DNA of 64,000 bases from Enterococcus sp. DIV0212c (lineage in GTDB: Bacteria > Bacillota > Bacilli > Lactobacillales > Enterococcaceae). The first letter of the stretch is position 1. Each line of letters starts with the position of its first letter. Position numbers and translations under genes: made by a program. Under the pieces are notes generated by a model. That model saw only the letters and a program-made list of their open reading frames with translations. It was not told where the DNA came from and did no database searches. Of this stretch, positions 15,023 to 52,284 are shown in pieces. The DNA is taken from NCBI RefSeq assembly GCF_017377505.1, contig NZ_JAFREN010000023.1, positions 45,359 to 109,358 on the forward strand. The letters run 5' to 3'.

Positions 15023-15088
15023 AATAACGGAGAAAAAAGAACGACCTTATGATTTTGATTGTCACTTCACTTTTTCTCCGTCGTTATT
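15023..15088 (-). terminator. Terminator or attenuator after the locus A DUF916 gene
   Basis: Arms 15071-15088 and 15023-15037 pair over ~15 bp with a 3-nt bulge. On the minus strand they are followed by TTTTTAC. One arm overlaps the DUF916 stop codon. It could separate the LPXTG-WxL-DUF916 core from the LRR genes. Confidence 0.55.
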
Positions 15089-16190
15089 ATTTCTTCTCTT
15101 TTTCTGGCTTTACTTTACGTTTTCTTTGTTGTGCTTGTTTTTTAGCTTGTTGTTTTCTCTTCATCGCAGCTTTCCGTTTTTTATTACTGATTGCTTTGAT
15201 AATTAATAGAATAACAATAACTAAAGACACCACAATTGCCGCAATTATGCCACCGATCATCCAGTAATTTGGTGCTTTTACTAATTCAACCGCTTCATCA
15301 TTTAATTTTTTACTTTCTTTTGCAGTAATTTCAAAGTCTTTTTTGAATGTCCATTCGTCATCTTTATTGCTGGCTACTAAATTCATTGTGTACTTTCCAG
15401 CAACTAGTTCTTGATTGTCCCAGTTGATTGGGAAATCAAAGTTTGAGTTTGGTGCCATATCCATTGCTTCTTTTGTTGTTTCGTGCAGGATTTCTGTTGA
15501 CCCTTTTTTACTGACTTTAGCTACAACTTTCAATCCGTTAAGGAATGTTGGTTTTGTATTTTGAAGATTGGCTGTAACTGACGTCCGATAATTGATCAAG
15601 CTTGGTTTGATATCATTTAATGTCATTTCTGGTGCAATTTTTTCGTCATTTTCTCTTAATTGTAAACCAACGACCATCGCATATTTATTCGTGATCTGGA
15701 CACCACTTGATTGTTTGCTTTTGTCTTCTTTTTCTTCTTTGTTAATATAAAATCCGCCGACAATTCTTCCTGGAATTTCTTCTTTTGGCATTTCTAATTT
15801 AAAGATTACTTCTTTTTTCTCAAAAGGGGCGACTGTTACTTTTTGTGCTTTTGAAAGGATTTTTGTTATAGGATACTTTAAGGTTGAATCGATTTCACGA
15901 TCTTTTTCACTGAAATCGATCACACCATTTTGGTTCGTCGTTGCAACATTCGGTACAACGTTTATATTAATTTCTTTGTCTCCTGAGTTGGTAACATTTA
16001 AAACGAGTTCTTGCTTGTCACCTGGTTTTACTTTTAAATCAAAATAAGATTGTGATTTATCAATTTGATTTTCTGGTATTTTCGCACTGACTGAATAGTC
16101 CATGTCAGCAGCCATAGCTTGTGGTGTGAATAGGGTTAGCAAGATGATTAAGCTAAGTAAACTGTAAAAACTTTTTTTCATGTGTTGCAT
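15087..16190 (-). CDS. WxL-interacting membrane protein (DUF916/DUF3324), locus A
   Basis: 367 residues. It has a signal peptide (ends near AMAA) and two extracellular beta domains of the DUF916 (peptidoglycan-binding) and DUF3324 (host-binding) kind, with motifs IPENQIDKSQSYFDL and MAPNSNFDFPI. One membrane helix (~312-336) and a very basic cytoplasmic tail rich in Lys, Arg and Gln follow. Family members sit in the membrane, bind WxL proteins and help display them at the wall. The start ATG has AGGAGG 7 nt upstream. Paralogues are at 33602 and 49001, with a more distant one at 52952. It follows the four WxL genes; a long hairpin lies in the gap upstream. Confidence 0.93.
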   Translation of the reverse strand: MQHMKKSFYSLLSLIILLTLFTPQAMAADMDYSVSAKIPENQIDKSQSYFDLKVKPGDKQELVLNVTNSGDKEININVVPNVATTNQNGVIDFSEKDREIDSTLKYPITKILSKAQKVTVAPFEKKEVIFKLEMPKEEIPGRIVGGFYINKEEKEDKSKQSSGVQITNKYAMVVGLQLRENDEKIAPEMTLNDIKPSLINYRTSVTANLQNTKPTFLNGLKVVAKVSKKGSTEILHETTKEAMDMAPNSNFDFPINWDNQELVAGKYTMNLVASNKDDEWTFKKDFEITAKESKKLNDEAVELVKAPNYWMIGGIIAAIVVSLVIVILLIIKAISNKKRKAAMKRKQQAKKQAQQRKRKVKPEKEKK

Positions 16191-16287
16191 TTGGTTTCCT
16201 CCTATGTAGTATAAATTGAGGCATTATGTGTAAGTATAGTTGAAATATTTAGACTTACTTCTATTAGAATAAATGATTCTCATAGTT

Positions 16288-16370
16288 GCTAACCTTAGTA
16301 TCTGACTAAGAAGTACTTTATCTAATGATAGACTTTGTACTTCTCGGTCAATATATCTAAGGTGATTAGC
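16288..16370 (-). other. Long imperfect hairpin between WxL and DUF916 genes
   Basis: Arms 16288-16316 and 16337-16370 pair over about 28 positions with small bulges (GCTAA-CCTTAG against CTAAGG-TTAGC; GAAGTAC against GTACTTC). There is no U-tract. A second small perfect hairpin (ATCTAAGC) lies at 16387-16410. The remainder of the 239-bp gap shows nothing else. A processing or stability element is possible. Confidence 0.5.
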
Positions 16371-16429
16371 TAATGCTCTTTGATACATCTAAGCTATAAG
16401 TTGCTTAGATTAATTATTCCTTTAACCTT

Positions 16430-17140
16430 TTAATTCCCTTTAGGAGCTGCTTCAAGATTCCAGTAGACAGTTGTTGAATATTCAGTATTAGCTTTTGCTG
16501 TCCCTCCTAGAATAGCGAGTTTGATCTTAGGATTTGTTTTATTTTCGTCTGTTACTTCTGAATTCTTCCATGAAAGCATCCAAGTTCCTTCACCAGTACC
16601 TTTAGTTGCACTCATGATTGGTTTAAATGAACTACCTAGAGTTACGCTTTGTGCTACTGGTTTTGTGACAGAGTTACCTGTACTTGCTGTAACCGCTTCT
16701 CCATCGTTTAATGACAACGCGGCTCCTTTTAGTTCGAACTGACCATTGGCACTCTTAAAATCATCTGCCTTTACAGATAATGTCCAACCTTCTGAAGATC
16801 CTCTTACATCAGTAACTTGCGCGTAAGGATTAGTGTTGACAGCATACTCAGCTTGATCAGAACCATTGATGTTGATTTCACCAAAATTAATATTCGGCAC
16901 GCGATCAATGGTCAATACTCCTTTGTTCCCTGTTCCAGGATTATTCTCATCTTCTGGGTCTGTTCCACCAACAGGAGGATGAGTAATTGTTTCATCTCCT
17001 TGTAGCATCTTAATTTTAACTTGAGAATCAGCTCCTGCTGGTTCTCCATCTTTTTCATCAGCCTTTACTTCTAATTGAAGGCTGCCTACCGTTAACAATC
17101 CTAATGCTAGTGAAGTCAATAATAGTGTGTGTGTTTTCAT
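16430..17140 (-). CDS. Secreted WxL-domain protein (type 4), locus A
   Basis: 236 residues. It has a signal peptide (cleavage near VKADE) and a short Pro/Gly-rich linker with PPVGGTDP and NPGTGNKG, then one WxL domain: LTIDRVPNINFG, VTDVRGS-EGWTL, a GTGEGTWML segment, and a final VYWNLEAAP. WxL domains bind peptidoglycan non-covalently. There is no other domain, so it is a wall-coat or complex subunit. Close paralogues in the same operon position are at 35054 (B) and 50044 (C); all three share the DRVPNI and AYxxNxxPY-like features. ATG start with AGGGAGA upstream. Last of the four WxL genes before the DUF916 gene. Confidence 0.9.
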   Translation of the reverse strand: MKTHTLLLTSLALGLLTVGSLQLEVKADEKDGEPAGADSQVKIKMLQGDETITHPPVGGTDPEDENNPGTGNKGVLTIDRVPNINFGEININGSDQAEYAVNTNPYAQVTDVRGSSEGWTLSVKADDFKSANGQFELKGAALSLNDGEAVTASTGNSVTKPVAQSVTLGSSFKPIMSATKGTGEGTWMLSWKNSEVTDENKTNPKIKLAILGGTAKANTEYSTTVYWNLEAAPKGN

Positions 17141-17161
17141 TTTGTTCTCCCTCTTTTATCC

Positions 17162-17839
17162 TTAGTTTTTTGGTGCATTTGTTAAAACCCAAATTAAATC
17201 TGCTTTATATTTACCGATTTTTGCATAAGTTGGAATGGAAAGACGAACTGATTTCTCTTCATCTGCTGTTTTGTCATCCATAAAAACATTTGTGTATGTT
17301 CCCAAACCAGTATCTTTGTCCGCTGAAAATACAACTGAAGCCGCCATTTTATCAATAATAACTTCCTGAGATTTAGGTGGATTAGCCAAATCACCAAACT
17401 TACTGGTAACAGTTCCTGCTGGAATGACTAACTTCCAACCTTTAGCAATTGTATTTTTATTGCCTTCTTCTGTTGACTTAAATTCACCCATAACTACTTG
17501 AACATTCCAACCAGAACCGAGTCCACGTTCATCAATTACTTCTAATCCTAATTTTCGATCTTTTGCAACAATTGCTTTTCCTAATTTACCCATTTCAATT
17601 TTTCCAAAGTTGAAGTCTGAGAGTCCATTAATCGTAAAATCGCCAGACCCAATACCAGGTTTTCCTGGTTCACCAATCGGTTCTTCTGGTTCTGCTCCAC
17701 CACTACCGTTTTCAGGTTTAGTGACTTCCACTTCTGCTATTGACGTTTTACTTGTAGGCGTATCTGCAAAAGCTGTTGCGGTATTTATTAGTAATAGACT
17801 TGCCATACTCATCGTGACTAGTAACTTAACTTTTCGCAT
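17162..17839 (-). CDS. Secreted WxL-domain protein (type 3), locus A
   Basis: 225 residues with a signal peptide (AFADT) and an acidic Gly/Pro linker (EPEEPIGEPG). The WxL domain contains FTINGLSDFNFG, VIDERGLGSGWNV, a GDLANPP motif and a terminal LIWVLTNAP. The start is ATG 17839 (MRKVK), which has GGAAGGAA upstream. An in-frame ATG at 17872 overlaps the previous gene's stop and lacks a ribosome site. Paralogues of this type are at 35762 (B) and 50786 (C). The WxL domain of the M60 protein at 27992 belongs to the same subtype. Probably translated with its neighbours from one operon mRNA. Confidence 0.88.
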   Translation of the reverse strand: MRKVKLLVTMSMASLLLINTATAFADTPTSKTSIAEVEVTKPENGSGGAEPEEPIGEPGKPGIGSGDFTINGLSDFNFGKIEMGKLGKAIVAKDRKLGLEVIDERGLGSGWNVQVVMGEFKSTEEGNKNTIAKGWKLVIPAGTVTSKFGDLANPPKSQEVIIDKMAASVVFSADKDTGLGTYTNVFMDDKTADEEKSVRLSIPTYAKIGKYKADLIWVLTNAPKN

Positions 17840-17864
17840 TAAAAATTTCCTTCCGTGTTTACGC

Positions 17865-18545
17865 TTAATCATTTACAACTGGTGCAGCACTGATTGTCCA
17901 TGTGATTGCTGCTTTGTATTTACCAAGCAAGTTTCCGCCTGGGATTGTTAATTCTACTTCCTCTGCCCAATCATTGATCCAAGAACCGTTTCCTTTGCCC
18001 TCAGTTGCAAATATAATTTTTGATGCAGCATCTTTACCGATAACTGTTCCTGCTGCATTTGCTGCTACTGGCGGATTGTCTGTGTCCCCATCAGCTCTTG
18101 TGTAGAATGTTCCTGCTGGTACAGTAATGTATGCACCTCTTAAGATTTGTGTTTCTTTTTTCTCTTCTGTAAAATCAGTAATTTGCGCATGAACTTCCCA
18201 ACCTTTTGCTGATCCTTGTTTATCGGTTACTTGGATACCAATTGTTTCGCCAGCTGGAACCTTTACGTTTGTTTTTGTTTCTCCACCTTTGATCTCTGCT
18301 GACTCAAACGCAAATTTAGAAACAGCATCAATTACTAAAGGACCTTTATTACCTGATTCTGGTTTAACTGGTTTAGTTTCATCCACTGGAGGATTTGTTT
18401 CAGCTGGATCAGCTGGTGTAAATTCAAACGTTGCCTGTGAACCTGCTACTAGTGGATTTTTTTCATCTGCATGTGCCGCATTTGCCCCTGCCACTAATAA
18501 CGCCCCTAAAATAACCGTACTACTTAAAATAATTGTCTTTTTCAT
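17865..18545 (-). CDS. Secreted WxL-domain protein (type 2), locus A
   Basis: 226 residues. The signal peptide ends near AAHADE, followed by a Pro-rich linker (NPPVDETKPVKPE) and a WxL domain with LVIDAVSKFAF, VTDKQGSAKGWEV, GNGSWINDW and AITWTISAAP. The first WxL motif reads WEV, a conservative variant. The start ATG lies 2 nt after the stop of the preceding WxL gene, with AGGAG inside that gene's end, so translational coupling is likely. The counterpart in locus B is at 36463; locus C lacks a clear type-2 gene. Confidence 0.88.
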   Translation of the reverse strand: MKKTIILSSTVILGALLVAGANAAHADEKNPLVAGSQATFEFTPADPAETNPPVDETKPVKPESGNKGPLVIDAVSKFAFESAEIKGGETKTNVKVPAGETIGIQVTDKQGSAKGWEVHAQITDFTEEKKETQILRGAYITVPAGTFYTRADGDTDNPPVAANAAGTVIGKDAASKIIFATEGKGNGSWINDWAEEVELTIPGGNLLGKYKAAITWTISAAPVVND

Positions 18546-18547
18546 TT

Positions 18548-19240
18548 TTATTCTGCTCCTTTAGTTTCTTCTTCTGTTCCAGTTGGTGTCGTTGCAATTG
18601 TCCAATTTAATTCCGCTTTATAGTTTCCTACTAAAGCATCTTGAGGAATTTTCAGTTCAATCTTGTCTTTACCAAATTCATTCAACCAGATTCCAGCACC
18701 TTCTTTATCATTAGCAACAAATACTGGTTGAGGATCTTTCTCTACAGATTTCACTTCCACAGGTGTCGGTTTTCCATCTGTTAATTTATCTGGTGATGTT
18801 GCTTCTCCCATCGGTAAGTACAACTCTGCACCTTTCAATGTAACTTTGTTGTCTTCTTGTTGTACAAAGTCAGACATTGAGACGCTGACAGTCCAACCTT
18901 TAGCTGTTCCGCGAATATCTCTTACTTCGATATTTGGCGCTGTATTTTTTGCTTTAATGGTTTCTTGTTTCCCTGTCAATTGGAACGTGCCAAAATCTAA
19001 TGGTGAAACAAACACAAGTGCTAAACGTCCTGTATTACCAGTTCCTCCGCCTTCTTCTCCTCCTGGATTGGTTGGCGTACCTTCTTCTTCATCACCAGCT
19101 TTTAATTCAACTGTTCCATAAGATGTTGCATCCTTATTTTCTTCTTTATCTCCGGCTGTGTTATCTGCTAATGCCAATGTTGGGCTCACAAGTCCACCTA
19201 ATACAACCGTTGTTACTAACATTGATTTCCATAATTTCAT
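18548..19240 (-). CDS. Secreted WxL-domain protein (type 1), locus A, internal start
   Basis: From the internal ATG at 19240 this is a complete 230-residue WxL precursor: signal peptide MKLWKSML... (cleavage near ALADN), a linker with NPGGEEGGGTGNTG, then a WxL domain with LVFVSPLDFG, VRDIRGTAKGWTV, GAGIWLNEFG and LNWTIATTP. The locus B counterpart (37170-37853) begins with the same MKLWKSML and is a separate gene. The same reading frame continues upstream without a stop into the LPXTG protein (see 18548-19567). A good ribosome site (19245-19253) supports independent initiation here. Confidence 0.85.
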   Translation of the reverse strand: MKLWKSMLVTTVVLGGLVSPTLALADNTAGDKEENKDATSYGTVELKAGDEEEGTPTNPGGEEGGGTGNTGRLALVFVSPLDFGTFQLTGKQETIKAKNTAPNIEVRDIRGTAKGWTVSVSMSDFVQQEDNKVTLKGAELYLPMGEATSPDKLTDGKPTPVEVKSVEKDPQPVFVANDKEGAGIWLNEFGKDKIELKIPQDALVGNYKAELNWTIATTPTGTEEETKGAE

Positions 19241-19567
19241 TGTTCTTCCTCCTAATATATATCTGTAAATAATAATGCCGCCTGCGGCTACGATTAGCAG
19301 GTATCCAAATGCAATGCCTAAAATCGTCAGGATTTCTCCTGTTTGCGGTAATCTCTTGCCATCTCCAATACCCAAGTCCCCTAGAAATTTTCCCATCGTA
19401 TCAGGAAATTTGCCGTTTTTTATTGGTGTATTGTCTTTTAAAAATCTAATACTTACTTGACTGCTTGCTTTATTTCCAGCGTTTTGTTCGACAGCGTCGA
19501 CAGGTTTAGGGTAAAATATAAAATAGGCCAACACTAGAAATATAAGAAGCAATCGCTCCCTTTTCAT
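18548..19567 (-). CDS. In-frame fusion of small LPXTG protein and type-1 WxL protein
   Basis: 339 residues from ATG 19567 (GGAGG 8 nt upstream). Residues 1-109 are a small LPXTG protein like those at 37807 and 52608: signal peptide (VDAVEQ), SSQVSIRF, a short spacer, RLPQTGE, a membrane helix and a short positive end (YRYILGGR). No stop follows; the frame runs straight into the WxL precursor at residue 110 (MKLWKSML). In locus B the two genes overlap in different frames. Topology would allow processing into two proteins: sortase at LPQTG, and signal peptidase before the WxL part. Whether the full fusion is made, or mostly the internally initiated WxL protein, is unknown. Confidence 0.75.
   Translation of the reverse strand: MKRERLLLIFLVLAYFIFYPKPVDAVEQNAGNKASSQVSIRFLKDNTPIKNGKFPDTMGKFLGDLGIGDGKRLPQTGEILTILGIAFGYLLIVAAGGIIIYRYILGGRTMKLWKSMLVTTVVLGGLVSPTLALADNTAGDKEENKDATSYGTVELKAGDEEEGTPTNPGGEEGGGTGNTGRLALVFVSPLDFGTFQLTGKQETIKAKNTAPNIEVRDIRGTAKGWTVSVSMSDFVQQEDNKVTLKGAELYLPMGEATSPDKLTDGKPTPVEVKSVEKDPQPVFVANDKEGAGIWLNEFGKDKIELKIPQDALVGNYKAELNWTIATTPTGTEEETKGAE
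19245..19253 (-). promoter_or_regulatory. Internal ribosome binding site of the type-1 WxL gene
   Basis: AGGAGGAAG lies 4-5 nt before ATG 19240. It is located inside the open frame of the upstream LPXTG part and encodes LGGR. It decides that the WxL protein can be started on its own despite the fused frame. Confidence 0.8.
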
Positions 19568-19680
19568 AAAAAACACCTCCTTATATTTTTTTCCCTATTC
19601 AAAAGTCCATTGTGTATACAAGCAACCCTTTTACTTAAATTATTGATCGTAATTTTGTATGTATCTAAAAGGCGCTGTCT

Positions 19681-19871: not shown

Positions 19872-20624
19872 ATGACTCTCACTGCAAAAGTCTACATAAT
19901 AGAAGATGACAATGAATATAGAAAAGGAATTGTTCACTCATTACAAAGCTATCACTCTCGTTTCGTTCATTTTGAGGTTTCTCCTATTGATAATCATTTA
20001 TTTTTTATGGAAGATCTTCAAACACTTCGAATAACAGATACAGATATTTTTATTTTTGATATCGATTTAAAAACTACTTTTTCTGGAATTGATTTAGCAA
20101 TAGAAGTTCGAAAGAAAAATACAAAGTGTATGATTATTTTTTTAACTAGTCTTGAAGATCAAGCAATCTCAGTCATCAACAGTAATATTTTCCCGCTAGG
20201 TTATCTTATTAAAAATCTTTCAGCACAAATAAACTTAACTGAATCAGTTCAAACATTACTGACTAAAGTAGAGAACAATCTAAGAAGTTATTGGCGTGAA
20301 GATCAAGATGTTGTGATGTTGACCAATGGAACTGAAAATGTTTACCTGAACTGTAAAGAGATTCTTTATATTGAATCATTGAAGGGGATGAGGGGAAGGA
20401 TATTGATTAAAACCTTGTCTGAAGATATTTTAATTGATGGCCGCATTGGAAAAATAAAAACAATGCTTACTCAGCCTTATTTCTTAACCTCTTTGCAATC
20501 GTACATCATTAATTTATCTGCAATTACATTCGTTGATAGAAGACACGGCATGATTACTTTTTCTGATGGACAAGAATTGTTGGTCGGTATAAAAATTATC
20601 GATAAAATAAAAAAAATCTTATAG
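19872..20624 (+). CDS. LytTR-family response regulator, locus A
   Basis: 250 residues. The N-terminal receiver domain has the acidic pair EDD (11-13), phospho-acceptor Asp63 (IFIFDID), Thr92 (FLTS) and Lys114. The C-terminal LytTR DNA-binding domain (~150-250) has YLNCKEILYIES and a final SYIINLSAI region. This is the AgrA/ComE type that activates divergent operons. ATG 19872 has AAAGGAGAAGG upstream; an in-frame TTG further upstream lacks a ribosome site. It is followed 10 nt later by HK1, so the three genes form one signalling operon. The likely target is the divergent surface operon (inference from position). Paralogues are at 38410 and 54548. Confidence 0.92.
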   Translation: MTLTAKVYIIEDDNEYRKGIVHSLQSYHSRFVHFEVSPIDNHLFFMEDLQTLRITDTDIFIFDIDLKTTFSGIDLAIEVRKKNTKCMIIFLTSLEDQAISVINSNIFPLGYLIKNLSAQINLTESVQTLLTKVENNLRSYWREDQDVVMLTNGTENVYLNCKEILYIESLKGMRGRILIKTLSEDILIDGRIGKIKTMLTQPYFLTSLQSYIINLSAITFVDRRHGMITFSDGQELLVGIKIIDKIKKIL

Positions 20625-20634: not shown

Positions 20635-21942
20635 TTGAATACATCACTACTTACTTCTTTAATTGCGTTAAACTTTCTACAAATTATTTGGTTAGTGACC
20701 TATAAAAGATTATTCAATTTACGTGAAAGTTTGATTTTAACGTTTTTTATTCTTTTACAGTTTGCATTACCTTTTTTTATTCGTCATGACTACGTCACCG
20801 TGCTTAAGCTTCCGTTTTATTTTTTTCAATTTGCCTTTGCCATGAAGCGGTTGAAAAATTGGTTTATTCCATCACTATTAATTAGTTTTGAAAATTCTTT
20901 GATTCTCTTATCCTGGATACCCACTTTGGACGCGTGGGATATTTTGTATATTAATCAGCAAATTTCTGCTAGTACATATATGTCTTTTTCAGTTTTATTT
21001 ATGTTTCTACAACAGTTTCTACTTTTTTTATTCATTGTATTGACGAATTATTTAAATGTACGTTTTTCATTTACGAATTCGATTGCTCTACTACCTAAAA
21101 ACTATAAATTTCTATCTACGATTTTTTTGTTCTTCTTATTTTTGTCCATCAATCTTAAACAAATTAGTGTATTGAGTGGCGACCTTTCTTCTCTTCTTTA
21201 TAGTTCGTTTATTGTAATTGGTTATACCTTATTTATTGGATTTACGATTTTGATTTTAGTCAATTACAACAATGAAAAACAATATATTGCACTGTTAACT
21301 GAAACACATGATCGTGAAAAAAAGAAAATTGCTCTTTCCCATGAATTTCGTAAAGAGTATAAAGCACTTTTACTTAGTTTAACGGGGTATTTAGAAACTG
21401 GAGATACGGAAAAAACACTTGAATTGCTCCATAGTATTATTGACTATTCTGATTCTTTACTTACTCCAAATTTATATAAGAAAATTTCAAATATAGAAAA
21501 TTTACCCATCCAAGGGCTTTTAACTAGCTTCTTAAATCGTTGTTTGTCGTCAGGTGTTCAGATAGACTTACAGATAACAGAAAAACTAGGTAATATCGAG
21601 ATGAATATCGTTGATTTTGTCCGTTGTTTCTCGATCCTTTTGGATAATGCTTATGAGGCAACAGAAATGTCTGTTCAGCCTGCAATTGTTATAAATATCA
21701 GTGGAGATGTTCAATCGGTAACAGTTGAAGTTGTGAATACATTCGATGAGAAAGAACCTATTCCTTTCCAGTCATTACTGCAAAATAATTTTTCAACTAA
21801 AAAGGGACATCAAGGTAAAGGATTACATATATTTTTAACTATTTTGGCAAACTATAAACAAAGTAGTTACAATATTTCTAAGAAAAACAATCATTTTATC
21901 TCTCAATTTACCATTCTAAAAAAATACGTTGATCATACGTAA
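20635..21942 (+). CDS. AgrC/ComD-type sensor protein HK1 with lost phospho-acceptor His, locus A
   Basis: 435 residues with about six membrane helices (1-210), then a cytoplasmic HPK10-like domain. The usual phospho-acceptor motif FRHDY reads FRKEY, with Lys240 in place of His. The ATPase part looks intact: N box LLDNAYEA (Asn338) and G box QGKGLHIF (~393-400). It therefore probably cannot autophosphorylate in cis but could phosphorylate the His of HK2 (21956) in trans (inference). Start is TTG behind GGAG, which overlaps the response-regulator stop, suggesting coupled and modest translation. The signal is unknown; no AgrD/ComC-like peptide gene is seen nearby. Confidence 0.88.
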   Translation: MNTSLLTSLIALNFLQIIWLVTYKRLFNLRESLILTFFILLQFALPFFIRHDYVTVLKLPFYFFQFAFAMKRLKNWFIPSLLISFENSLILLSWIPTLDAWDILYINQQISASTYMSFSVLFMFLQQFLLFLFIVLTNYLNVRFSFTNSIALLPKNYKFLSTIFLFFLFLSINLKQISVLSGDLSSLLYSSFIVIGYTLFIGFTILILVNYNNEKQYIALLTETHDREKKKIALSHEFRKEYKALLLSLTGYLETGDTEKTLELLHSIIDYSDSLLTPNLYKKISNIENLPIQGLLTSFLNRCLSSGVQIDLQITEKLGNIEMNIVDFVRCFSILLDNAYEATEMSVQPAIVINISGDVQSVTVEVVNTFDEKEPIPFQSLLQNNFSTKKGHQGKGLHIFLTILANYKQSSYNISKKNNHFISQFTILKKYVDHT

Positions 21943-21955
21943 AAGGAGATTATTC

Positions 21956-23272
21956 ATGGACATATCCATTTTTACTGGAATGCTAGCACTAAATTATCTC
22001 CAGATCATTTGGTTTTTAGGAAATAAAAAATTTACTTCTTCGCTTCAAACAACTATTCTTTCTTCCTTGTTGATTTTTCAATTTTTGTTAAGTCTATTCA
22101 TTAAAGATCCTTATATTTTGATTGCTCTATTACTTTTTTCGATTCTTCATCCTATATTTATTATTCATTTCTCAAATAATTGGCTGTCCATGGGTCTTTT
22201 TCTTTACTTAGAAAGTTCCTTGGTGATTCTTGCTTGGTTGTTTACACATGATCTATTGTTTTTTTTGACCAAGACAGGAAAAATTCCTGCTACTTTCTAT
22301 CAGCAGTTTGCCCCTTTTTCATTAGCAGCGCAACAGCTATTACTCCTAGTTTTGATTTTGTCGATGCTAAAATTAGAGTCTAAGTATAAGATTTTTGATT
22401 CTATTTCTCAGATTCAAAAGAATTATAAAACACCGGTCATCATCCTGACTGTTCTTTTAATTATTCTAAATATTCTTAGACATTTATCCGTTGTTACTTA
22501 TACTCTGATTACTTTTTTATATTTAACTTTTATCCTACTCACACTTAGCACTGTTTTTTTTCTGATTGCTTATCTATACAGTCGTTATTATTTACAGCAA
22601 ATAAAAAAGACTCTTTTATTTCAACGATACAATAATGAAATGGAACAAATTGCTCTAGCTGATGAATTTAGACATGATTATCGTAATATTTTGGTAAGTT
22701 TAATGCGTTATGTTGAGCAAGGAAAAACAGATGAGGCACTGACTTATATTACTTCCATTACCAATTACTCAAAAGATTTGCTAGAAGAAGATCAATATGA
22801 GCAACTAAGTCGTTTGTTGATACCTTCTGTACAAGGATTGCTGATTCATTTTGTTGAGACGTGCAGAATAAAAAACATCAAACTGACTCTTATTATCCCT
22901 CAAGCTATTCAGGAAATAGATGTTTCTATTCGATTAATTGATTTTATTCGTTGTCTCTCTGCGGTTTTTGATTATGCAGTGACGAAGCAACGATTTGAAA
23001 CACAAAAAGAGTTCGTTTTAATTATAAAAAAAGAGAATGATCATCTTTATTTTGAGTTAACGAATATAGACGCACATCAGGGCTCAATTAGTGAATCCGC
23101 TGATTTTACATTGAATAATAAGAAAGAGTTGAGGATTGCTGGGCTTAACAGTATTTCGAAGATTTTGGCTCAATACCGAGGTACTTTATTCTCTTTTTAT
23201 GAGAATGAAGAGGAGTTTTCAGTGGAGTTTATGCTGGAGGTCAGTACTTCAAATTTATTTGAGTTTAGCTAG
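21956..23272 (+). CDS. AgrC/ComD-type sensor protein HK2 with degenerate ATPase, locus A
   Basis: 438 residues with about six membrane helices, then FRHDYRNIL with His240 intact at the position where HK1 has Lys240. The catalytic domain is degenerate: the N box reads VFDYAV, with Tyr340 replacing the Mg/ATP-binding Asn, and no GxGL G box is visible (RIAGLNSI instead). It looks like a phosphotransfer partner without kinase activity. ATG 21956 follows AAAAGGAG, 13 nt after HK1. The HK1/HK2 pair may form a heterodimer that phosphorylates the LytTR regulator (inference). Last gene of the operon; a hairpin terminator follows. Confidence 0.87.
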   Translation: MDISIFTGMLALNYLQIIWFLGNKKFTSSLQTTILSSLLIFQFLLSLFIKDPYILIALLLFSILHPIFIIHFSNNWLSMGLFLYLESSLVILAWLFTHDLLFFLTKTGKIPATFYQQFAPFSLAAQQLLLLVLILSMLKLESKYKIFDSISQIQKNYKTPVIILTVLLIILNILRHLSVVTYTLITFLYLTFILLTLSTVFFLIAYLYSRYYLQQIKKTLLFQRYNNEMEQIALADEFRHDYRNILVSLMRYVEQGKTDEALTYITSITNYSKDLLEEDQYEQLSRLLIPSVQGLLIHFVETCRIKNIKLTLIIPQAIQEIDVSIRLIDFIRCLSAVFDYAVTKQRFETQKEFVLIIKKENDHLYFELTNIDAHQGSISESADFTLNNKKELRIAGLNSISKILAQYRGTLFSFYENEEEFSVEFMLEVSTSNLFEFS

Positions 23273-33601: not shown

Positions 33602-34684
33602 TTACTCATTATTTTTCATTTTCTTTTTTTTCCGTTTTTTCTCTAAACGTTTCTTTTCTAACGCTTTTTTACGTTGTTTTTCTTTTATGATTTTTACAAT
33701 CACCAGAATAACGATTAAAATAACCAAAATGATTCCCGCAATAATTCCGCCAATCAACCAATAGTTCGGTTCTTTTTTGACTTCAATTGCTTCTTCTGTT
33801 AATTTTTTCGCTTCCTTACTGTTGATTTCAAAATCTTTTGAGAATTTCCACTCATTATCTTTTGTGCTTGCGACTAACTCTAAAGAATATTTTCCTGGAG
33901 TAATCTCCTGATTATCCCAACTAATTGGAAAATCAAAATTTGAGTTTGGTGCCATTGCCATTTCTTCTTTAGTTGTTTGGTGGATAACTTCTTTTGATCC
34001 TTTTTTGCTTACCTTAGCCACAACTTTCAAATCATTCACAAATGTTGGTTGTGTGTTTTGTAAATTAGCTGTTATGGCTGTTCGATAGTTCAGTAAACTT
34101 GGTTGAATCGTATTCAATTTTAATTCAGGTGCTACAGGATCATCTTTTTCAGTTAGTTGAATACCAACAACCATGGCATATTTATTGGTGATTTGAACGC
34201 CGCCTTCAGATTTTTTGTCTTTTTCCCCTGATTCATCTTTATAGACGTAAAATCCGCCCACTATTTTCCCAAGCAGTTCCTCTTCTGGCATTTGTAAGCT
34301 AAACGAAACCACTTTATTCTCTTTAGGTGCTAAGGTCACTTTTTGTTCCTTAGATAGAAGCTTTGTCAGTGGATACTTAAGGCTAGAATCTATGGCCTTG
34401 TCCTTTTCACTAAAATCAATCACACCGTTTTGATTGGTTGTTGCCACATTGGGAATGATATTCAACGTGATTTCTTTGTCTCCAGCATTTGAAACATTCA
34501 GTGTTAAGTCTTGTTTTTGTCCTGGTTTCATTCGTAGATCAAAGTACGTTTGACTTTTATCTACTTGATTTTCCGGAATATTGGCAGATATGGAATATTC
34601 CATATCTGCCGCTAAAGCGGGCGTTCCTATGAAAAATAATGTAATTAAAAATAAACTGTAAATCATTGTTTTGACGTTGCGCAT
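33602..34684 (-). CDS. WxL-interacting membrane protein (DUF916/DUF3324), locus B
   Basis: 360 residues: signal peptide (ALAAD), DUF916 domain beginning YSISANIPENQVDKSQ, DUF3324 domain with MAPNSNFDFPI, one membrane helix (~308-332), and a Lys/Arg/Glu-rich tail. Very close to the locus A protein at 15087, so the two loci are recent relatives. It should bridge membrane, WxL proteins and peptidoglycan. ATG with AGGAGGAAAAA upstream. It is separated from the upstream WxL gene by a 369-bp gap that holds a dispersed repeat. Confidence 0.93.
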   Translation of the reverse strand: MRNVKTMIYSLFLITLFFIGTPALAADMEYSISANIPENQVDKSQTYFDLRMKPGQKQDLTLNVSNAGDKEITLNIIPNVATTNQNGVIDFSEKDKAIDSSLKYPLTKLLSKEQKVTLAPKENKVVSFSLQMPEEELLGKIVGGFYVYKDESGEKDKKSEGGVQITNKYAMVVGIQLTEKDDPVAPELKLNTIQPSLLNYRTAITANLQNTQPTFVNDLKVVAKVSKKGSKEVIHQTTKEEMAMAPNSNFDFPISWDNQEITPGKYSLELVASTKDNEWKFSKDFEINSKEAKKLTEEAIEVKKEPNYWLIGGIIAGIILVILIVILVIVKIIKEKQRKKALEKKRLEKKRKKKKMKNNE

Positions 34685-34828
34685 CGTTTTTCCTCCTGTA
34701 GTAAATGAGCTTGGGCTAACCTAAAACTTTTGAGACACCCAACTTTTAAAACAGATGTTTTAACGTCTGTGGTGAATAAAATAACGATTAGTTTATTTAA
34801 TGTGATCAATCGTTAGAAAGTAAGAGTT

Positions 34829-34998
34829 GTGAGTGGGACATAACTCTTCGAGTCATATCCCACTCACGTAGAATCCGGATAAACGGTGGGAGCAGAAGCA
34901 ATCCCTTCGGAAATAAGCTGGAATTCACAAAAATTTGAAGAGAAATTTTCGTGAATTTCTTCTTATTTCTCGGGATTAAACACTTCTGTCCCATCCTC
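34829..34998 (-). repeat. Dispersed intergenic hairpin repeat, copy 2 (long form)
   Basis: A 170-bp copy, inverted relative to copies 1 and 3, with the inner stem-loop (AATTCACAAAAATTT against its inverse) and the outer end hairpin (GTGAGTGGGA...TCCCACTCAC). It lies inside the locus B operon between the last WxL gene and the DUF916 gene. The rest of the 369-bp gap (34685-35053) shows nothing else. Confidence 0.82.
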
Positions 34999-35053
34999 AT
35001 CATCTACCTACTTTCTTAGTATCAATCAATTTTTGCCTTGCTCTTACTCATTT

Positions 35054-35737
35054 TTATTTCCCTGGTGCGTCTTGAAGCTCCCAGTAAATGGTTGTTGTAT
35101 AAGCTGTGTTAGCTTTAGCTGTACCAGCTAAAATAGCTAATTGGATACTTTTATTTTTTTCATCAGCAGCTGCTTTTGTCCATTTTTGCATCCAAGTACC
35201 TTCACCGGCTTTTTTGTCTGCCATCATAACTCTTTGGTTTTTTGCTGTTAATGTCACATCAAAACCTTTTGGTGCAACGATTGCTTTTCCTGTACTAGCT
35301 GATACAACTTCATTATTGTTCAATGATAATGTTGCACCTTTTAATTCGTCTTTAGCAGCACTTGTAAAAGCATCAGCTCTAGCATAAAGTGTCCAACCAG
35401 CAGAAGTTCCACGAACGTCTGTTACTTGAGTATATGGATTTTCATTCATGGCATATTCTACTTGATCAGAACCACTGATGTTTACTTCACCAAACGTTAT
35501 GTTTGGCACACGATCAATCGTTAACAGACCTGTATTTCCTGTTCCTGGATTTTCTGGGTCAGTTGGATCTTCGCCTCCTGCTGGGGGACGAATTTCGTTT
35601 TCGTTTCCTGCCAACATTTGAAGCTCAGCAGTTGATTTGCCATCTGATAATTTTTCTGCATGTGCCTCTGTGTTAAAGCTGTTAACGGCTAATACGCCTA
35701 ATACTAGAGATGAGAATAATACTAGATTTTTTTTCAT
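35054..35737 (-). CDS. Secreted WxL-domain protein (type 4), locus B
   Basis: 227 residues. Signal peptide (AHAEK), linker with PPAGGEDPTDPENPGTG, and a WxL domain: LTIDRVPNITFG, VTDVRGTSAGWTL, GEGTWMQKW and IYWELQDAP. It corresponds to the locus A gene at 16430 in both sequence and operon position. It is probably a non-covalently bound wall subunit. ATG with TAGGAG upstream. The dispersed repeat downstream may reduce read-through to the DUF916 gene. Confidence 0.9.
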   Translation of the reverse strand: MKKNLVLFSSLVLGVLAVNSFNTEAHAEKLSDGKSTAELQMLAGNENEIRPPAGGEDPTDPENPGTGNTGLLTIDRVPNITFGEVNISGSDQVEYAMNENPYTQVTDVRGTSAGWTLYARADAFTSAAKDELKGATLSLNNNEVVSASTGKAIVAPKGFDVTLTAKNQRVMMADKKAGEGTWMQKWTKAAADEKNKSIQLAILAGTAKANTAYTTTIYWELQDAPGK

Positions 35738-35761
35738 TTTTACACTCCTATTTTTTTAAAA

Positions 35762-36436
35762 TTATTTTGCTGGTGCGTTCGCCAATATCCAAGTTAAATC
35801 AGCTTTATATTTACCTACTTTTGCATAGCTAGGAATTGTTAAACGAACACCATCTGTAGCTGCTGTTTTGTCATCCATAAATATGTTCGTATATCTACCT
35901 AAGCCTTTATCTTTTGCCGCAGAAAATACTGTTTTAGCAGTACCAGCAGTATCCAATGTTACAGCACTTGTATCAGGAGCATTCACTAAATCCCCTTGCT
36001 TACTTGTCACTTTTCCTTTTGGAATCTCTAATTTCCAACCTTTTACGATAGTATCTGTGTTGCCCTGAACTGTTGAGCTAAAGTTTGTCATAGCCACTTG
36101 AACATTCCAACCAGCACCTGTTCCTCGATCATCAACAACTTCTATCCCTAATTTTTTACCAGTTGCAACTGTTGCAGTACCAACTTCACCAATTTTGATT
36201 TGACCAAAAGCAAAATCAGAAACGGCATTGATAGTGAAGTCGCCTGATCCAGTTCCTGGTCCGATTGGTTCTTCTGGGTCTACTGGTTTTCCTGGATCAA
36301 TTCCGGCAGATTTCGTTACTTCAACTTCTGCTTTAGTTGTTTTTTGTGTTGCTGTATCTGCTGCAAAAGCACTTTGGCCATTGATGAATAAAAGACCAGC
36401 TAATGCAACGCCTGCTAATAAATTAATTTTTTTCAT
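35762..36436 (-). CDS. Secreted WxL-domain protein (type 3), locus B
   Basis: 224 residues. Signal peptide (AFAAD), linker with GKPVDPEEPIGPG, and a WxL domain with FTINAVSDFAFG, VVDDRGTGAGWNV, GDLVNAPD, GRYTNIFMDD and LTWILANAP. It matches 17162 (A) and the WxL domain of the M60 protein at 27992. ATG with AAGGAAG upstream, 24 nt before the next gene. Role as for other WxL-only proteins: a peptidoglycan-bound coat or complex subunit. Confidence 0.9.
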   Translation of the reverse strand: MKKINLLAGVALAGLLFINGQSAFAADTATQKTTKAEVEVTKSAGIDPGKPVDPEEPIGPGTGSGDFTINAVSDFAFGQIKIGEVGTATVATGKKLGIEVVDDRGTGAGWNVQVAMTNFSSTVQGNTDTIVKGWKLEIPKGKVTSKQGDLVNAPDTSAVTLDTAGTAKTVFSAAKDKGLGRYTNIFMDDKTAATDGVRLTIPSYAKVGKYKADLTWILANAPAK

Positions 36437-36462
36437 TTTATTACTTCCTTTTCTTTATCTGA

Positions 36463-37155
36463 TTATTTTGTTCCTGTAGGCGTATCAATTAATGTCCAAG
36501 TAATTGTTGCAGAGTAAGTACCAACAAGGTTTCCACCAGGAATTACTAACTCTACTTGATCAGCCCACGCATTGACCCAAGAACCTTTTCCTTTTTCTTT
36601 AGCTGCCGTGATAAGTTGTGTTTCAGTTGTTCCAATCACTGTTCCTTGAGCATTTGCTGCTGTTGGTGGATTTAATGTATCCCCATTTGCGGATGTTTTA
36701 AACGTTCCAGCAGGAATTTTTACTGTAGCGCCTTTTAATGTTTTAATATTTTTATCATCTGTTTTATCTTCAAAATTGCTGATTTTTGCTCGAACATTCC
36801 AACCAGCACCTGTTCCACGCTTATCTGTTACTTGAATTCCTAATGTTTCTCCATCTTTAGCTACTGCATTTGTTTTTGTTTCGCCACCTGAAATAGCTGC
36901 TGAACCAAAGTTGAATTGAGAAACAGCATCAATCGTCAATAAGCCTACTTGACCTGTTCCACCTTCTTCACCTGGATCAACTGGTTTTTCTGGATCTACA
37001 GGTTCATTGGGATCTGGATTTGTCGGATCTTCTGTTTCAAGACTGAATGTCGCTTTACTATCATATGGTTTTGTACTTTCTGCATGAACTGCTTGTGCAG
37101 CCATAGCAAATGATGTTAATACAACTGCACTTGTTAAAATAATTGTTTTTTTCAT
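36463..37155 (-). CDS. Secreted WxL-domain protein (type 2), locus B
   Basis: 230 residues. Signal peptide (VHAES), a Pro-rich linker (DPNEPVDPEKPVDPGEEGG) and a WxL domain with LTIDAVSQFNFG, VTDKRGTGAGWNV, GKGSWVNAW and ITWTLIDTP. It corresponds to 17865 in locus A. ATG with AAGGAGAG upstream. It sits 14 nt after the type-1 gene, so the two are co-transcribed. Confidence 0.9.
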   Translation of the reverse strand: MKKTIILTSAVVLTSFAMAAQAVHAESTKPYDSKATFSLETEDPTNPDPNEPVDPEKPVDPGEEGGTGQVGLLTIDAVSQFNFGSAAISGGETKTNAVAKDGETLGIQVTDKRGTGAGWNVRAKISNFEDKTDDKNIKTLKGATVKIPAGTFKTSANGDTLNPPTAANAQGTVIGTTETQLITAAKEKGKGSWVNAWADQVELVIPGGNLVGTYSATITWTLIDTPTGTK

Positions 37156-38409: not shown

Positions 38410-39162
38410 ATGAGCTTATGTGCTAAAATTTATGTGATAGAAGATGATTATGAATATAGGAAACGAATTATTCAATCTTTAAAAGACTATCACTCTAACT
38501 TTGTTGATTTCGATATTTCTTCTATTGATAATCATTTATTTTTTTTAAAGGATTTACAAACGCTGTCCATTACTGATACGGATGTTTTTATTTTTGATAT
38601 TGAGTTGAAAACAACGTTTACCGGAATCGATTTAGCGACTGAAGTGAGAAAACGAAATAATAACTGTTCGATTATTTTTCTGACTAGTCTAGAGGACAAA
38701 GCTATTTCTATCATTAATAGTGATATCTTTCCACTTGGTTATATCGTGAAAGATGCCACTTATCCAGGGAATTTGAATAGCTCAATCCATAAATTATTAA
38801 CAAAAGTAGAACATCACTTAAAAGATTTTTGGACTGAAAACCCTGATATCGTTACATTAAAAAATGGTGCTGAAAAAGTTTATATCAATTGTAAAAATGT
38901 CCTTTACATTGAATCCGTTAAAGGAGTACGTGGACAAATTTTAATTAAAACTTTTTCAGAAGAAATCATTATCAACGGTCATATTGGAAAAATAAAAAAA
39001 CTTTTACCACAAGACTACTTGATGACCTCATTACTGTCTTATATCATTAACCTCTCAACCATTGCGACACTTGATCGAGCAAATGGCATCGTTACCTTCT
39101 CAAATGGAGAACAATTAAATGTAGGTATCTCAATTATTGATAAAATAAAAAAAGCCTTATAG
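38410..39162 (+). CDS. LytTR-family response regulator, locus B
   Basis: 250 residues, the same length as the locus A protein. The receiver has EDD (11-13), Asp63 (IFDIE), Thr92 and Lys114. The LytTR domain (~150-250) has YINCKNVLYIES and SYIINLSTI. It probably binds direct repeats in the divergent region and activates the locus B surface operon (inference from family and position). ATG with TAAGGAG upstream. HK1 follows after 13 nt, with its ribosome site starting at this gene's stop. Confidence 0.92.
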   Translation: MSLCAKIYVIEDDYEYRKRIIQSLKDYHSNFVDFDISSIDNHLFFLKDLQTLSITDTDVFIFDIELKTTFTGIDLATEVRKRNNNCSIIFLTSLEDKAISIINSDIFPLGYIVKDATYPGNLNSSIHKLLTKVEHHLKDFWTENPDIVTLKNGAEKVYINCKNVLYIESVKGVRGQILIKTFSEEIIINGHIGKIKKLLPQDYLMTSLLSYIINLSTIATLDRANGIVTFSNGEQLNVGISIIDKIKKAL

Positions 39163-39175: not shown

Positions 39176-40468
39176 TTGGACAAATCTCTCTTCACATCAT
39201 TATTAGCTATTAATTGCTTTCAATTGATCTGGCTTCTTACCTATAAAAAACTTCTTATGTTGCGTGAAAGTCTTATTCTAACCTTTTGTGTGTTGCTACA
39301 ATTTATGGCAGGGTTTCTTATTAGTTCTCCTTATGTCGCCATTTTTCAACTACCTTTCTTTTTATTACAGTTTATTTTTTCAATCCGACGAGTCAACAAT
39401 TGGTTTGCCCCCTCTTTATTGATTAGTTTTGAAATCTCATTGATTACTCTGTCTTGGCTTCCAACATTAGATACTTGGGATATTTTGCATTACAATCATC
39501 AAATTTCTGAAACGACCTATCTATCTTATTTCTATCTCTTTATTTTTTTACAGCAACTTGCATTATTTTTGATTATTTGTTTAATGAATTATTTATGGAA
39601 ACGATTCTTTCCTTCTGATACACCCTTGTTGCTTCCAAAAAAATATCGATTGCTGTCTATCTCACTTTTATTTATGCTTTTTTTAGCCGTTATAATCAAA
39701 CAAATCAATGTTTTAACTGGAGATACTTTTTCTCTGATGTACAGTTTGTTTATCATCGTTGGGTACACCATTTTAATCAGCTGGAATTTACTAATTGTGA
39801 TCAAGTCCAATAATGAGAAACAATATATCGCGCTTCTATCTGAAACCTATAATCGTGAGAAGAGTAAAATAAGTCTTTCTAATGAATTTCGACAAGATTA
39901 TAAAATGTTCCTACAAAGTTTAACGGCTTATTTAGAGGTTGGTGATAAAGAAAAAGCCATTGAGCAACTCAATGGTATTATCCAATATTCTGACTCTTTA
40001 CTTACCCCAAATTTGTATCGAAAAATTTCTGGGATCGACAATTTACCAATTCAGGCGTTACTCACTAGTTTTCTAAATAAATGTCTCGCCGCAAGTATTC
40101 AACTGAATATACATATAACGGAAAATTTGGCAAACATCGACATGAATATCGTCGATTTTATACGATGCTTTTCTATTCTTTTAGATAATGCCTATGAAGC
40201 AACTGGAAAAACAACTTCACCTTCTATTGAATTATCCATTACTGGAACAGCTGAGACGGTAACGATCGAAGTTGATAACACATATGAAAACAATCAACAA
40301 ATTCCTTTCTCAGCTTTTTTACAAAATAATTTTTCAACAAAAGAAGGGCACCTAGGGAAGGGCTTGTATATCTTTATTACGATATTAAAAAGTTACAAAC
40401 AAAGCAGTCATAACTTTACAAATAAAAACAACCATTTTATTGCTAAATTTACTTTTCCAAAAAAGTAA
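39176..40468 (+). CDS. AgrC/ComD-type sensor protein HK1 with lost phospho-acceptor His, locus B
   Basis: 430 residues with about six membrane helices, then a coiled region and FRQDYKMFL, with Gln240 where the phospho-acceptor His is expected. The ATPase boxes are kept: LLDNAYEA and LGKGLYIF. This is the same loss as in the locus A HK1 (Lys240) but through a different residue, so the loss is either independent or under relaxed constraint. TTG start with TAGGAGG upstream. It is probably the catalytic half of a split kinase acting on HK2 (40529). Confidence 0.88.
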   Translation: MDKSLFTSLLAINCFQLIWLLTYKKLLMLRESLILTFCVLLQFMAGFLISSPYVAIFQLPFFLLQFIFSIRRVNNWFAPSLLISFEISLITLSWLPTLDTWDILHYNHQISETTYLSYFYLFIFLQQLALFLIICLMNYLWKRFFPSDTPLLLPKKYRLLSISLLFMLFLAVIIKQINVLTGDTFSLMYSLFIIVGYTILISWNLLIVIKSNNEKQYIALLSETYNREKSKISLSNEFRQDYKMFLQSLTAYLEVGDKEKAIEQLNGIIQYSDSLLTPNLYRKISGIDNLPIQALLTSFLNKCLAASIQLNIHITENLANIDMNIVDFIRCFSILLDNAYEATGKTTSPSIELSITGTAETVTIEVDNTYENNQQIPFSAFLQNNFSTKEGHLGKGLYIFITILKSYKQSSHNFTNKNNHFIAKFTFPKK

Positions 40469-40528: not shown

Positions 40529-41818
40529 ATGGAAACAATTATTTTCATTGGAATGATGATCCTGAACTATTTACAATTTGTTTGGCTTCTAAAGGAAAAG
40601 TCGTTCATTTCTATGCGTCAAATGGTTATTTTATCACTAGTATTACTTTTTCAAATTCCCTCTTACCTGCTCTTTAATGAACCGTATGCTCTAATTATTT
40701 GTTTTAGTATTTTACAACCGATTTTTATAATACGAACTTTAAAAAATTGGTTACCAATGGTACTTTTTCTTTATTTAGAAAATTCATTGATCATTCTTTC
40801 ATGGCTATTCACAAATGATTTATTAACGTTCTTATTTGAAGCAAATCACGTACCTGACACTCTCTACCAGCAATTGTTTCCTGTTTCATTAATCGGACAG
40901 CAACTATTACTTTTTGCTTTAATTCAGCTAGCTAAATGGTTTGATTTAAGACATAATATCTTTGACTCTGTTGCTCAGATTCAAAAGAATTATAAAATAC
41001 CTGCTTTATTATTGAGCGCTCTTTTAATTTCTTTAAGCGCCTTTAAGCACTTAGCTATTTTCCTTGGTTCGACGATCGACTTCTTTTATCTAACGTTTCT
41101 TTTACTAACATTGAGTATTATTTTATGTTCTATTGCTTATTTCTACAGCCTTTATTACCGGGAACAATTAAAGAAAAAGATTTTAAATCAACAATATAGT
41201 AAAGAAATGGAAAAAATCACGCTGGCTGATGAATTCCGGCATGATTATCATAATATTTTATTGAGTTTGATGGGCTATATTGAAAATGATGAGTTAGAAA
41301 AAGCACTGGATTTTGTTTCTTCTGTTGAAAATTATTCTAAGAATCTGTTGGAAGAAGATGAATACGATGAAATCAACCACTTAACGATTCCCGCTGTACA
41401 AGGCTTGCTGATTCAATTTATTGAATCATGTGAAGAAAAGAAGATTCCACTTAACATCTCGATTCCTCAACTGATCCATGAATCAGATATTTCCATTCAG
41501 TTGATTGATTTTATTCGGTGTATCTCTGCTCTGTTTGACTATGCATTAAAAAATAATGTAGAAGGTCACGCTTCAACTTTAAGACTCTCAATCAAAGTAG
41601 AAAAACAAGTATTTTACTTTCATTTAACCAATGTAGAAAATCATTCTGAATTAATCGAAACTACGTATAGACAAAGTACTCGTCCTAAAAATAAGCTTAT
41701 TGAAAGTAATTTACTAACTGCTAAAAAAATTCTTCAGCACTATAAAGAAACGGAGTTTTACATTTCCTCTAGCAAAGAAAAATTTACGCTGACTTTTAGC
41801 TTTCCGATAATCCCTTGA
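40529..41818 (+). CDS. AgrC/ComD-type sensor protein HK2 with degenerate ATPase, locus B
   Basis: 429 residues. About six membrane helices, then FRHDYHNILLSL with His238 intact. The N box reads ALFDYAL (Tyr for Asn) and no G box is visible near the C-terminus (NKLIESNLLTAKKIL). It looks like a phosphotransfer partner of HK1. ATG with AAAAGGAG upstream. The 60-bp gap to HK1 shows no terminator, so the operon should continue. A strong bidirectional terminator follows at 41916. Confidence 0.87.
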   Translation: METIIFIGMMILNYLQFVWLLKEKSFISMRQMVILSLVLLFQIPSYLLFNEPYALIICFSILQPIFIIRTLKNWLPMVLFLYLENSLIILSWLFTNDLLTFLFEANHVPDTLYQQLFPVSLIGQQLLLFALIQLAKWFDLRHNIFDSVAQIQKNYKIPALLLSALLISLSAFKHLAIFLGSTIDFFYLTFLLLTLSIILCSIAYFYSLYYREQLKKKILNQQYSKEMEKITLADEFRHDYHNILLSLMGYIENDELEKALDFVSSVENYSKNLLEEDEYDEINHLTIPAVQGLLIQFIESCEEKKIPLNISIPQLIHESDISIQLIDFIRCISALFDYALKNNVEGHASTLRLSIKVEKQVFYFHLTNVENHSELIETTYRQSTRPKNKLIESNLLTAKKILQHYKETEFYISSSKEKFTLTFSFPIIP

Positions 41819-50736: not shown

Positions 50737-50785
50737 TATTATCTATCCTCCATTTTTGATTTACCAAAAAATCCTTATCTCAGCT

Positions 50786-51451: not shown

Positions 51452-51475
51452 ATAAAATTCCTCCATTACTTTTTA

Positions 51476-51503
51476 TTCAACAGCTTACTACGACAACTTC
51501 CTT
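51476..51503 (+). repeat. 28-bp inverted repeat, left copy
   Basis: TTCAACAGCTTACTACGACA and eight more bases are an exact reverse complement of 52285-52312. The two copies flank one complete WxL gene (51555-52256) with its ribosome site. This layout fits a site-specific invertible segment of ~837 bp. Confidence 0.88.
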
Positions 51504-51554
51504 CAAGATTAAAATATTATTTATTGTGTTTTTTTAATGTATTATATGTTCCAA

Positions 51555-52256: not shown

Positions 52257-52284
52257 TTAATTTCTCCTAACATATTCCACCTGC

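Follow-up and report, generated by a model that had tools for sequence, protein, structure and literature searches.

Histidine kinases are usually regarded as homodimers. The described system closest to the one considered here is FasBCAX of group A Streptococcus, which comprises two AgrC/ComD-type kinases and a ComE-like response regulator (RR). According to a 2025 report (PMC12675982), FasB and FasC form a heterodimer in two-hybrid tests, homodimers being absent there, with FasB providing the kinase domain and FasC the phospho-acceptor His. In this work, we describe a 64-kb stretch of DNA from Enterococcus sp. DIV0212c (hereafter the window; the genome carrying it is 3.54 Mb) that contains three copies, named loci A, B and C, of a unit composed of the same kinds of genes: an RR gene followed by two kinase genes, HK1 and HK2. 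From sequence comparison, we consider it likely that the pairs of loci A and B, and those of a related type D, are obligately heterodimeric split kinases of the AgrC family, and that HK2 of locus C is an optional or added subunit.

The Fas report (PMC12675982) also states that FasC requires H246 and functions without its own ATP domain, that FasB functions without its membrane part and requires its C-terminal kinase part, and that FasB H241 is dispensable; its authors leave room for phosphorylation on FasB H284. The gene order is HK-HK-RR (fasB-fasC-fasA), with fasX as the target, whereas that of the enterococcal units is RR-HK1-HK2, and no FasX match was found in the window at E values up to 0.1.

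Other split or paired kinases have been described. CheA3 and CheA4 of Rhodobacter sphaeroides likewise place the His and the ATP domain on separate proteins, neither is reported to autophosphorylate alone, and modelling suggests that split kinases may respond in a switch-like manner if the free His partner is a phosphatase (PMC3591291). However, these are chemotaxis CheA proteins in which whole domains are lost, whereas in the enterococcal pairs the losses are local and affect two membrane sensors. Hik36-Hik43 of Synechocystis is termed a split histidine kinase, and its halves interact and have one RR in common (PMC7656254), but as described there it is chemotaxis-like rather than AgrC-type and its genes lie far apart. 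In RetS-GacS (cited in PMC12675982) and DivL-CckA, a modulating or pseudo-kinase is said to stand next to a working kinase; in these two systems, the partner works as a kinase by itself, and complementary loss is absent as far as these accounts go. Staphylococcus aureus AgrC (PDB 6E52, 4BXI) has the same fold and motifs as the enterococcal kinases, but it is a single, complete protein working as a dimer (PMC6755735). In a search of the open-access literature, which covered titles and the starts of abstracts with subscription journals mostly and preprints wholly outside it, neither enterococcal pairs of this kind nor residue-level complementary loss in AgrC-type kinases was found except in the Fas paper. 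Complementing AgrC mutants were reportedly engineered in a 2009 study, which this search did not locate.

Motif states at the three loci

All six kinases are open reading frames (ORFs) on the forward strand. Their positions were about right in a preliminary description of the window, but three gene starts have been moved: RR-A now begins at 19872 and HK2-C at 56808, and the most likely start of HK2-A is the ATG at 21956, which has AAAGGAG upstream, rather than 21929.

Locus A consists of RR-A (19872..20624, forward strand), a LytTR-type (AgrA/ComE-like) regulator assigned with Pfam and with its start chosen by the ribosome-binding site, followed by HK1-A (20635..21942) and HK2-A (21956..23272). 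HK1-A is a catalytic half: its H-box reads FRKEY, so that Lys occupies the phospho-acceptor position 240 (codon 21352..21354, counted from the ORF start), and its N box (LLDNAYEA) and G box (GKGL) are intact. HK2-A is a phospho-acceptor half, in which FRHDY is intact, Tyr replaces the N-box Asn (FDYAV) and the first Gly of the GxG motif is missing. Locus B has the same arrangement, with RR-B (38410..39162, LytTR-type), HK1-B (39176..40468), which has Gln at position 240 (FRQDY) and the same intact LLDNAYEA and GKGL boxes, and HK2-B (40529..41818), which keeps FRHDY, has Tyr for Asn (FDYAL) and has lost both glycines. At locus C, RR-C (54548..55321, LytTR-type) is followed by HK1-C (55311..56642), which has FRHDY together with LLDNAYEA and GKGL and is therefore complete, and by HK2-C (56808..58091), in which FRHDY is kept, Phe replaces Asn (SDFAV) and the first Gly is lost. 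If a split kinase is defined as one whose His and ATP site lie on separate proteins, loci A and B are split by sequence and locus C is not.

The preliminary description had proposed these changes for HK1-A and HK1-B, and the sequence agrees. It had also given FRHDY and a Tyr or Phe N box for the HK2 proteins, which stands, and no clear G box, which stands in part: the first Gly is lost in all three, but the second remains in A and C. Profile alignment to the solved AgrC structures (6E52, 4BXI), a check it had suggested, identifies the changed HK1 residue with the His of AgrC FRHDY and the HK2 Tyr or Phe with the Asn of AgrC LDNA. In wide alignments, no alternative invariant His is present in the DHp region of HK1 and no N-box Asn in HK2; the one invariant His of HK1, H392, sits in the ATP lid and is common to single kinases too.

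In the predicted models, both HK1 and HK2 consist of a helical membrane part followed by DHp and GHKL regions, and AgrC is the best structural match for both. The order of sensor, DHp and ATP domains and the LytTR partner are as in AgrC/ComD-type (HPK10) kinases. The HK2 model retains a GHKL fold resembling that of AgrC (4BXI, TM 0.75 by target length). Note that the ATP lid has low confidence in both models, so they do not distinguish HK1 from HK2. Pfam HATPase_c_5 matches HK1-A, B and C with E values of 2e-11 to 2e-14, HK2-A with 22.4 bits (cut-off 22) and HK2-C with 28.9 bits; HK2-B has no match, and its domain is assigned by alignment alone. Against the NCBIfam model of AgrC proper (NF046015, curated cut-off 500 bits), HK1-A and HK1-C score only 71 and 92 bits, and HK2-A and HK2-C give no match. 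For RR-A, Pfam gives LytTR with an E value of 1.3e-10 and Response_reg with 29.3 bits, slightly below the cut-off of 30.2.

Distribution and history of the enterococcal pairs

A search of other enterococcal genomes, as had been proposed, yields the RR-HK1-HK2 order with the HK2 residue pattern in 17 units from 9 of the 22 genomes of the genus; some of these units are in records named E. caccae, E. quebecensis, E. termitis, E. crotali and E. ureasiticus. All 17 HK2 proteins keep His and have lost both the N-box Asn (10 Tyr, 7 Phe) and the first G-box Gly, with the second Gly surviving in 12. The earlier remark that the second sensor is incomplete at all three loci while its His is kept extends to every unit. 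All 17 HK1 proteins keep Asn and both glycines; the nine that also keep His are all of C type, and the eight in which it is replaced (5 Gln, 2 Lys, 1 Asp) are of A, B or D type. RR residues E11, D12, D63, T92 and K114 are invariant (17/17), so phosphate most likely still matters.

For comparison, 26 single RR-HK relatives were fetched, which are part of the matches in the genus and family and mostly the best-scoring ones. All 26, like HK1-C, have the H-box, N box and G box in one protein, and the full set is absent from HK1-A, HK1-B and all 17 HK2 proteins. As neither the 17 pairs nor the 26 single kinases include an exception, the pattern goes beyond chance. The preliminary view that AgrC/ComD systems normally use one kinase overlooks the FasBC heterodimer (PMC12675982). 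In the protein database, whose sets overlap with the genome set, HK2-like proteins have His and lack Asn in 21 of 21 cases; HK1-like proteins have Asn and the glycines in 33 of 33 and lack His in 13 (6 Gln, 2 Lys, 4 Asp, 1 Val). Among these HK1-like proteins, the D type (n = 8) has Asp in four, His in three and Val in one, and Thr replaces the next Asp. Such a variable site is as expected for a position without selection, although three proteins keep His.

The N-box replacement is aromatic in all 25 HK2 rows, in a domain that is merely 37% identical, which suggests a structural part for this residue rather than plain decay. The N box looks as if the aromatic residue plugs or props the former ATP pocket. 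The persistence of the GHKL fold in the HK2 model and of the second Gly in 12 of 17 proteins would also be compatible with homodimers that have residual chemistry, HK1 using some other residue and HK2 binding ATP weakly. With no other invariant His in the HK1 DHp region, and with Asn and the first Gly gone from every HK2, we consider such homodimers very unlikely.

Searches that covered 105 family genomes and 395 genomes from the order added no tandem pair of this kind among the matches listed, within bounds set by the chosen E-values and, for the order, by the best four scored candidates per genome and a capped list. A scan of genome contigs based on the RR gave eight enterococcal loci, seven of them pairs already seen, plus distant relatives. 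Several other tandems were noted among the fetched loci, which are labelled by L-numbers. L134 (2151-3428, 4343-5626), from another family of the order, has the order RR-HK-RR-HK with Arg for His in the first kinase and a complete second one. L130 (in the window's own genome, contig C10), L131 and L132 are tandem Agr-like kinases that are all complete, which indicates that tandem duplication by itself is insufficient for a split.

Identities between the loci of the window are 51-61% for the HK1 copies and 41-49% for the HK2 copies, and 26-30% between HK1 and HK2. In a tree of 78 rows, calculated by a quick method after removal of the motif columns and with SH-aLRT (a likelihood-ratio branch test) as the only support measure, HK1 forms one clade (97) and HK2 another (99), and both divide into the same three subgroups, A/B, C and D. 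This tree calls for a single loss of Asn and no fewer than four changes of the His state. By parsimony, we infer that the HK2 ATP site was lost before the HK1 His losses began.

Conservation differs between the two halves in the direction of the lost sites. Mean H-box identity is 94% in HK2, 84% in eight near single kinases and 59% in HK1 of types A, B and D; for the ATP domain, the corresponding values are 37%, 50% and 58%. The ratio of nonsynonymous to synonymous substitution rates (dN/dS) in seven ortholog comparisons is 0.07-0.11 for HK1 and 0.14-0.24 for HK2, and in the ATP domain it is 0.04-0.12 for HK1 (6/7; HK1-B is saturated) and 0.22-0.40 for HK2 (7/7). Some dS values are near or above 1, and every dN/dS value is well under 1 with a maximum of 0.40 in any domain computed. 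The HK2 ATP domain is thus relaxed yet still held.

Loss of catalytic residues could in principle be the start of decay, so that these degenerate kinase genes would be functionless. Both reading frames are open in all 17 pairs, however, the dN/dS ceiling just given applies to every domain, and no kinase has lost both sites, which makes decay the least probable of the explanations considered.

An alternative is that HK2 serves as a phosphatase or adaptor for the RR and that the A and B pairs are no longer kinases, with another kinase such as HK1-C, or small phosphodonors, charging their RRs instead. Dephosphorylation of an RR would also use the kinase His and the following Asp, both of which HK2 retains, and a C locus occurs in all four genomes with A, B or D types. 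On the other hand, the HK1 ATP domain of type A is constrained (dN/dS 0.07 and 0.10; that of B is not computable), for which it is difficult to account without a kinase reaction, and the FasBC precedent requires the C-terminal kinase part of FasB (PMC12675982). We therefore regard this alternative as unlikely, and retain the split heterodimer as the preferred explanation for A and B.

Paired kinases in streptococci

A tandem pair was not seen in one search of 59 genomes of the streptococcal family, but a later search found such pairs. The FasX RNA family marks 13 distinct streptococcal fas loci (L142, L153-L156, L158 and L160-L166); L146 coincides with L166. The fas-like L157, whose FasB reading frame is broken into pieces, lay outside the FasX search, and fas-like L159 has no FasX match. 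At all 13 loci, FasB has the canonical His replaced (by S, N, I, M, A, L, D, E or V) and keeps Asn and the glycines, and FasC keeps His and has no G box, its ORF reaching only 365 aa in L142 and 283 aa in L165. FasC differs from enterococcal HK2 in keeping the N-box Asn at 8 of the 13 loci, whereas HK2 keeps it in none.

At most FasX loci, the canonical His site is residue 246 in FasC, which matches the published H246 (PMC12675982), and residue 254 in FasB. L156 carries a relative with FasB and FasC of the published lengths (448 and 427 aa), in which FasB has His at 241 and 284, among others, and Ser at 254. In this relative, the canonical FasB site is thus residue 254 rather than His241 or His284, which, the step to the studied strain being made by likeness, is consistent with the reported dispensability of H241.

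Further streptococcal pairs are of several kinds. At L142, L160, L161 and L166, a second complementary pair precedes fas, which results in arrays of four kinases (His-only, catalytic-only, catalytic-only and His-only, in this order). L140, L141 and L167 contain a reversed pair, in which a His-only kinase (N-box Asn replaced by Arg) precedes a catalytic-only one, and no RR was recognised within the stretch fetched. L168 and L169 contain another complementary pair followed by an RR, with no FasX match at the gathering score.

The fetched loci are not a random sample, the streptococcal ones having been picked as tandem or fas-like matches. They include 51 adjacent kinase pairs, 30 of which are complementary (8 enterococcal, 22 streptococcal). 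The others are nine pairs of a complete and a His-only kinase (the enterococcal C type), six in which both are complete, five in which both are catalytic-only (four in the four-kinase arrays, one in L171) and one catalytic-only kinase with a complete one (L170); L172 carries a fragment in addition to two catalytic-only kinases. In L147 and L151, the G box is absent since the ORF ends early. Among the remaining 54 rows, 45 are complete, and nine comprise odd rows, three fas proteins with a neighbour that did not pass the rules on adjacency, length or duplicates, and a WxLIP protein taken in by mistake. The latter is the only row in which both sites are missing; none of the kinases in the fetched loci has lost both.

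A tree of 110 rows places the enterococcal pairs among single kinases of enterococci and the streptococcal pairs elsewhere, and requires at least six changes at His and at least four at the ATP site. Approximately unbiased (AU) tests on 100 rows with quick trees reject a single clade of all His-only proteins (p-AU 1.3e-5) and one of all catalytic-only proteins plus HK1-C (p-AU 1.6e-4). Since a single clade is rejected for each half, the split appears to have arisen separately, and separate origins in Enterococcus and Streptococcus are well supported under the model used. On balance, we lean towards complementary splitting of AgrC/ComD-type kinases as a recurrent one-way route in Lactobacillales, in which one kinase becomes a pseudokinase first, its partner is then free to lose His, and the two are bound to act as an obligate heterodimer. 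Locus C would represent the state before, and types A, B and D the state after, the second loss, and the streptococci would have taken this route on their own, as seen in fas and in three other types of pair, some in four-kinase arrays.

Gene layout, proposed mechanism and significance

In types A, B and D, the HK1 stop and the HK2 ATG are -4 to +89 bp apart, and none of the 8 gaps contains a hairpin according to a strict script. Two of these gaps were also folded, and the one in the D-type L066 shows a hairpin that lacks a T run. C-type gaps measure 132 to 221 bp for the starts chosen (165 in the window), and a terminator-like hairpin is present in 4 of 9 by the strict script and in the other 5 by folding, judged by eye. 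In the window, this is a 20-bp hairpin with a T run that spans the HK1-C stop codon (56624..56671, forward strand). A possible HK2-C promoter read by eye (56735..56763, forward strand) consists of a weak TTGTAC, a 17-bp spacer and TGATATGAT. This last block is present in 8 of 9 C-type loci, as is TTTTTGATATGAT, a possible extended -10, upstream of HK2. Note that the candidate promoter is absent from the list of a consensus scan, which gave fewer promoter-like sites than shuffles did. HK2 thus seems to be expressed separately where HK1 is complete, and the two genes to be tied where HK1 has lost its His.

We infer the following course of signalling. The two membrane sensors would pair through their DHp helices, and the ATP domain of HK1 would phosphorylate in trans the His of HK2, the sole phospho-acceptor His of the pair. 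Phosphorylated HK2 would then phosphorylate the LytTR RR on its Asp, and this RR probably controls divergent WxL genes nearby. As to the origin of the pair, a single early event at the base of the family may have turned HK2 into a pseudokinase, after which HK1 was free to lose its His in some lineages. Locus C would be the older state, with an HK1 able to work alone and an HK2 that is an added acceptor or modulating subunit, probably expressed separately.

For A and B, the heterodimer is the best supported reading because the losses are complementary, dN/dS is low in both genes, constraint is relaxed at the lost sites, the genes are coupled and the RR receiver is intact. The preliminary description had given an obligate heterodimer as the simplest reading. 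This is supported at A and B, as judged from complementary loss and constraint, but 'obligate' fails at C, where HK1 is complete.

Several observations weigh against a general heterodimer. Since HK1-C is complete, obligate pairing does not extend to the whole family, and three of the eight D-type HK1 proteins (P0056-P0058) keep His, with Thr for the next Asp. The low dN/dS of the HK2 ATP domain and the surviving second Gly imply some remaining role for this domain, and HK1 of A and B is relaxed at the H-box only, the remaining DHp having a dN/dS of 0.06-0.08 where computable. No RR-binding repeat common to the A, B and C types was found upstream of the RR genes, so that the link from the RRs to the WxL genes is drawn from gene layout. 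Finally, the C locus found in every genome with A, B or D types makes cross-pairing with HK1-C conceivable. In that case, HK2 of A or B would be phosphorylated mainly by HK1-C in one three-locus network, for which the identities between the loci and the lack of any A, B or D type without C (4 genomes) would speak. Because HK1 and HK2 share the same three subgroups locus by locus, and the A, B and D genes lie so close together, we think this improbable and prefer pairing within each locus.

The divergent WxL/WxLIP surface-protein genes are all on the reverse strand and lie beside locus A (15087..19576), locus B (33602..37155) and locus C (50044..54196), with Pfam matches to WxL or WxLIP in three, two and two of their ORFs, respectively; each group is the putative target of the adjoining RR. 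WxL-type genes adjoin all 10 units checked (3 in the window, 7 in L104-L110); for the other 7 of the 17 units, the fetched DNA was too short for this check. Several single RR-HK loci likewise lie near WxLIP genes, so pairs are not alone in having this layout. The surroundings of locus A (12006-27221) also encode leucine-rich-repeat and legume-lectin-like surface proteins. After HK2-B, positions 41906-41979 match a microRNA model on both strands; the two matches are far below the family cut-off, and this identity was dismissed. A match on both strands indicates an inverted repeat, which is perhaps a transcription terminator.

The enterococcal family, the residue anatomy and the convergence are new, and the principle has one experimental precedent, FasBC. 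The alignment also bears on a point left unsettled in the Fas paper, the phosphorylation site of FasB (PMC12675982). Since three paralogous loci within 64 kb represent states before and after the second loss, the origin of obligate heterodimers becomes testable. If our interpretation is true, such a pair would be a natural AND gate made from two membrane sensors, neither of which signals alone, in which the subunit meeting the regulator is fixed and phosphorylation is forced to occur in trans.

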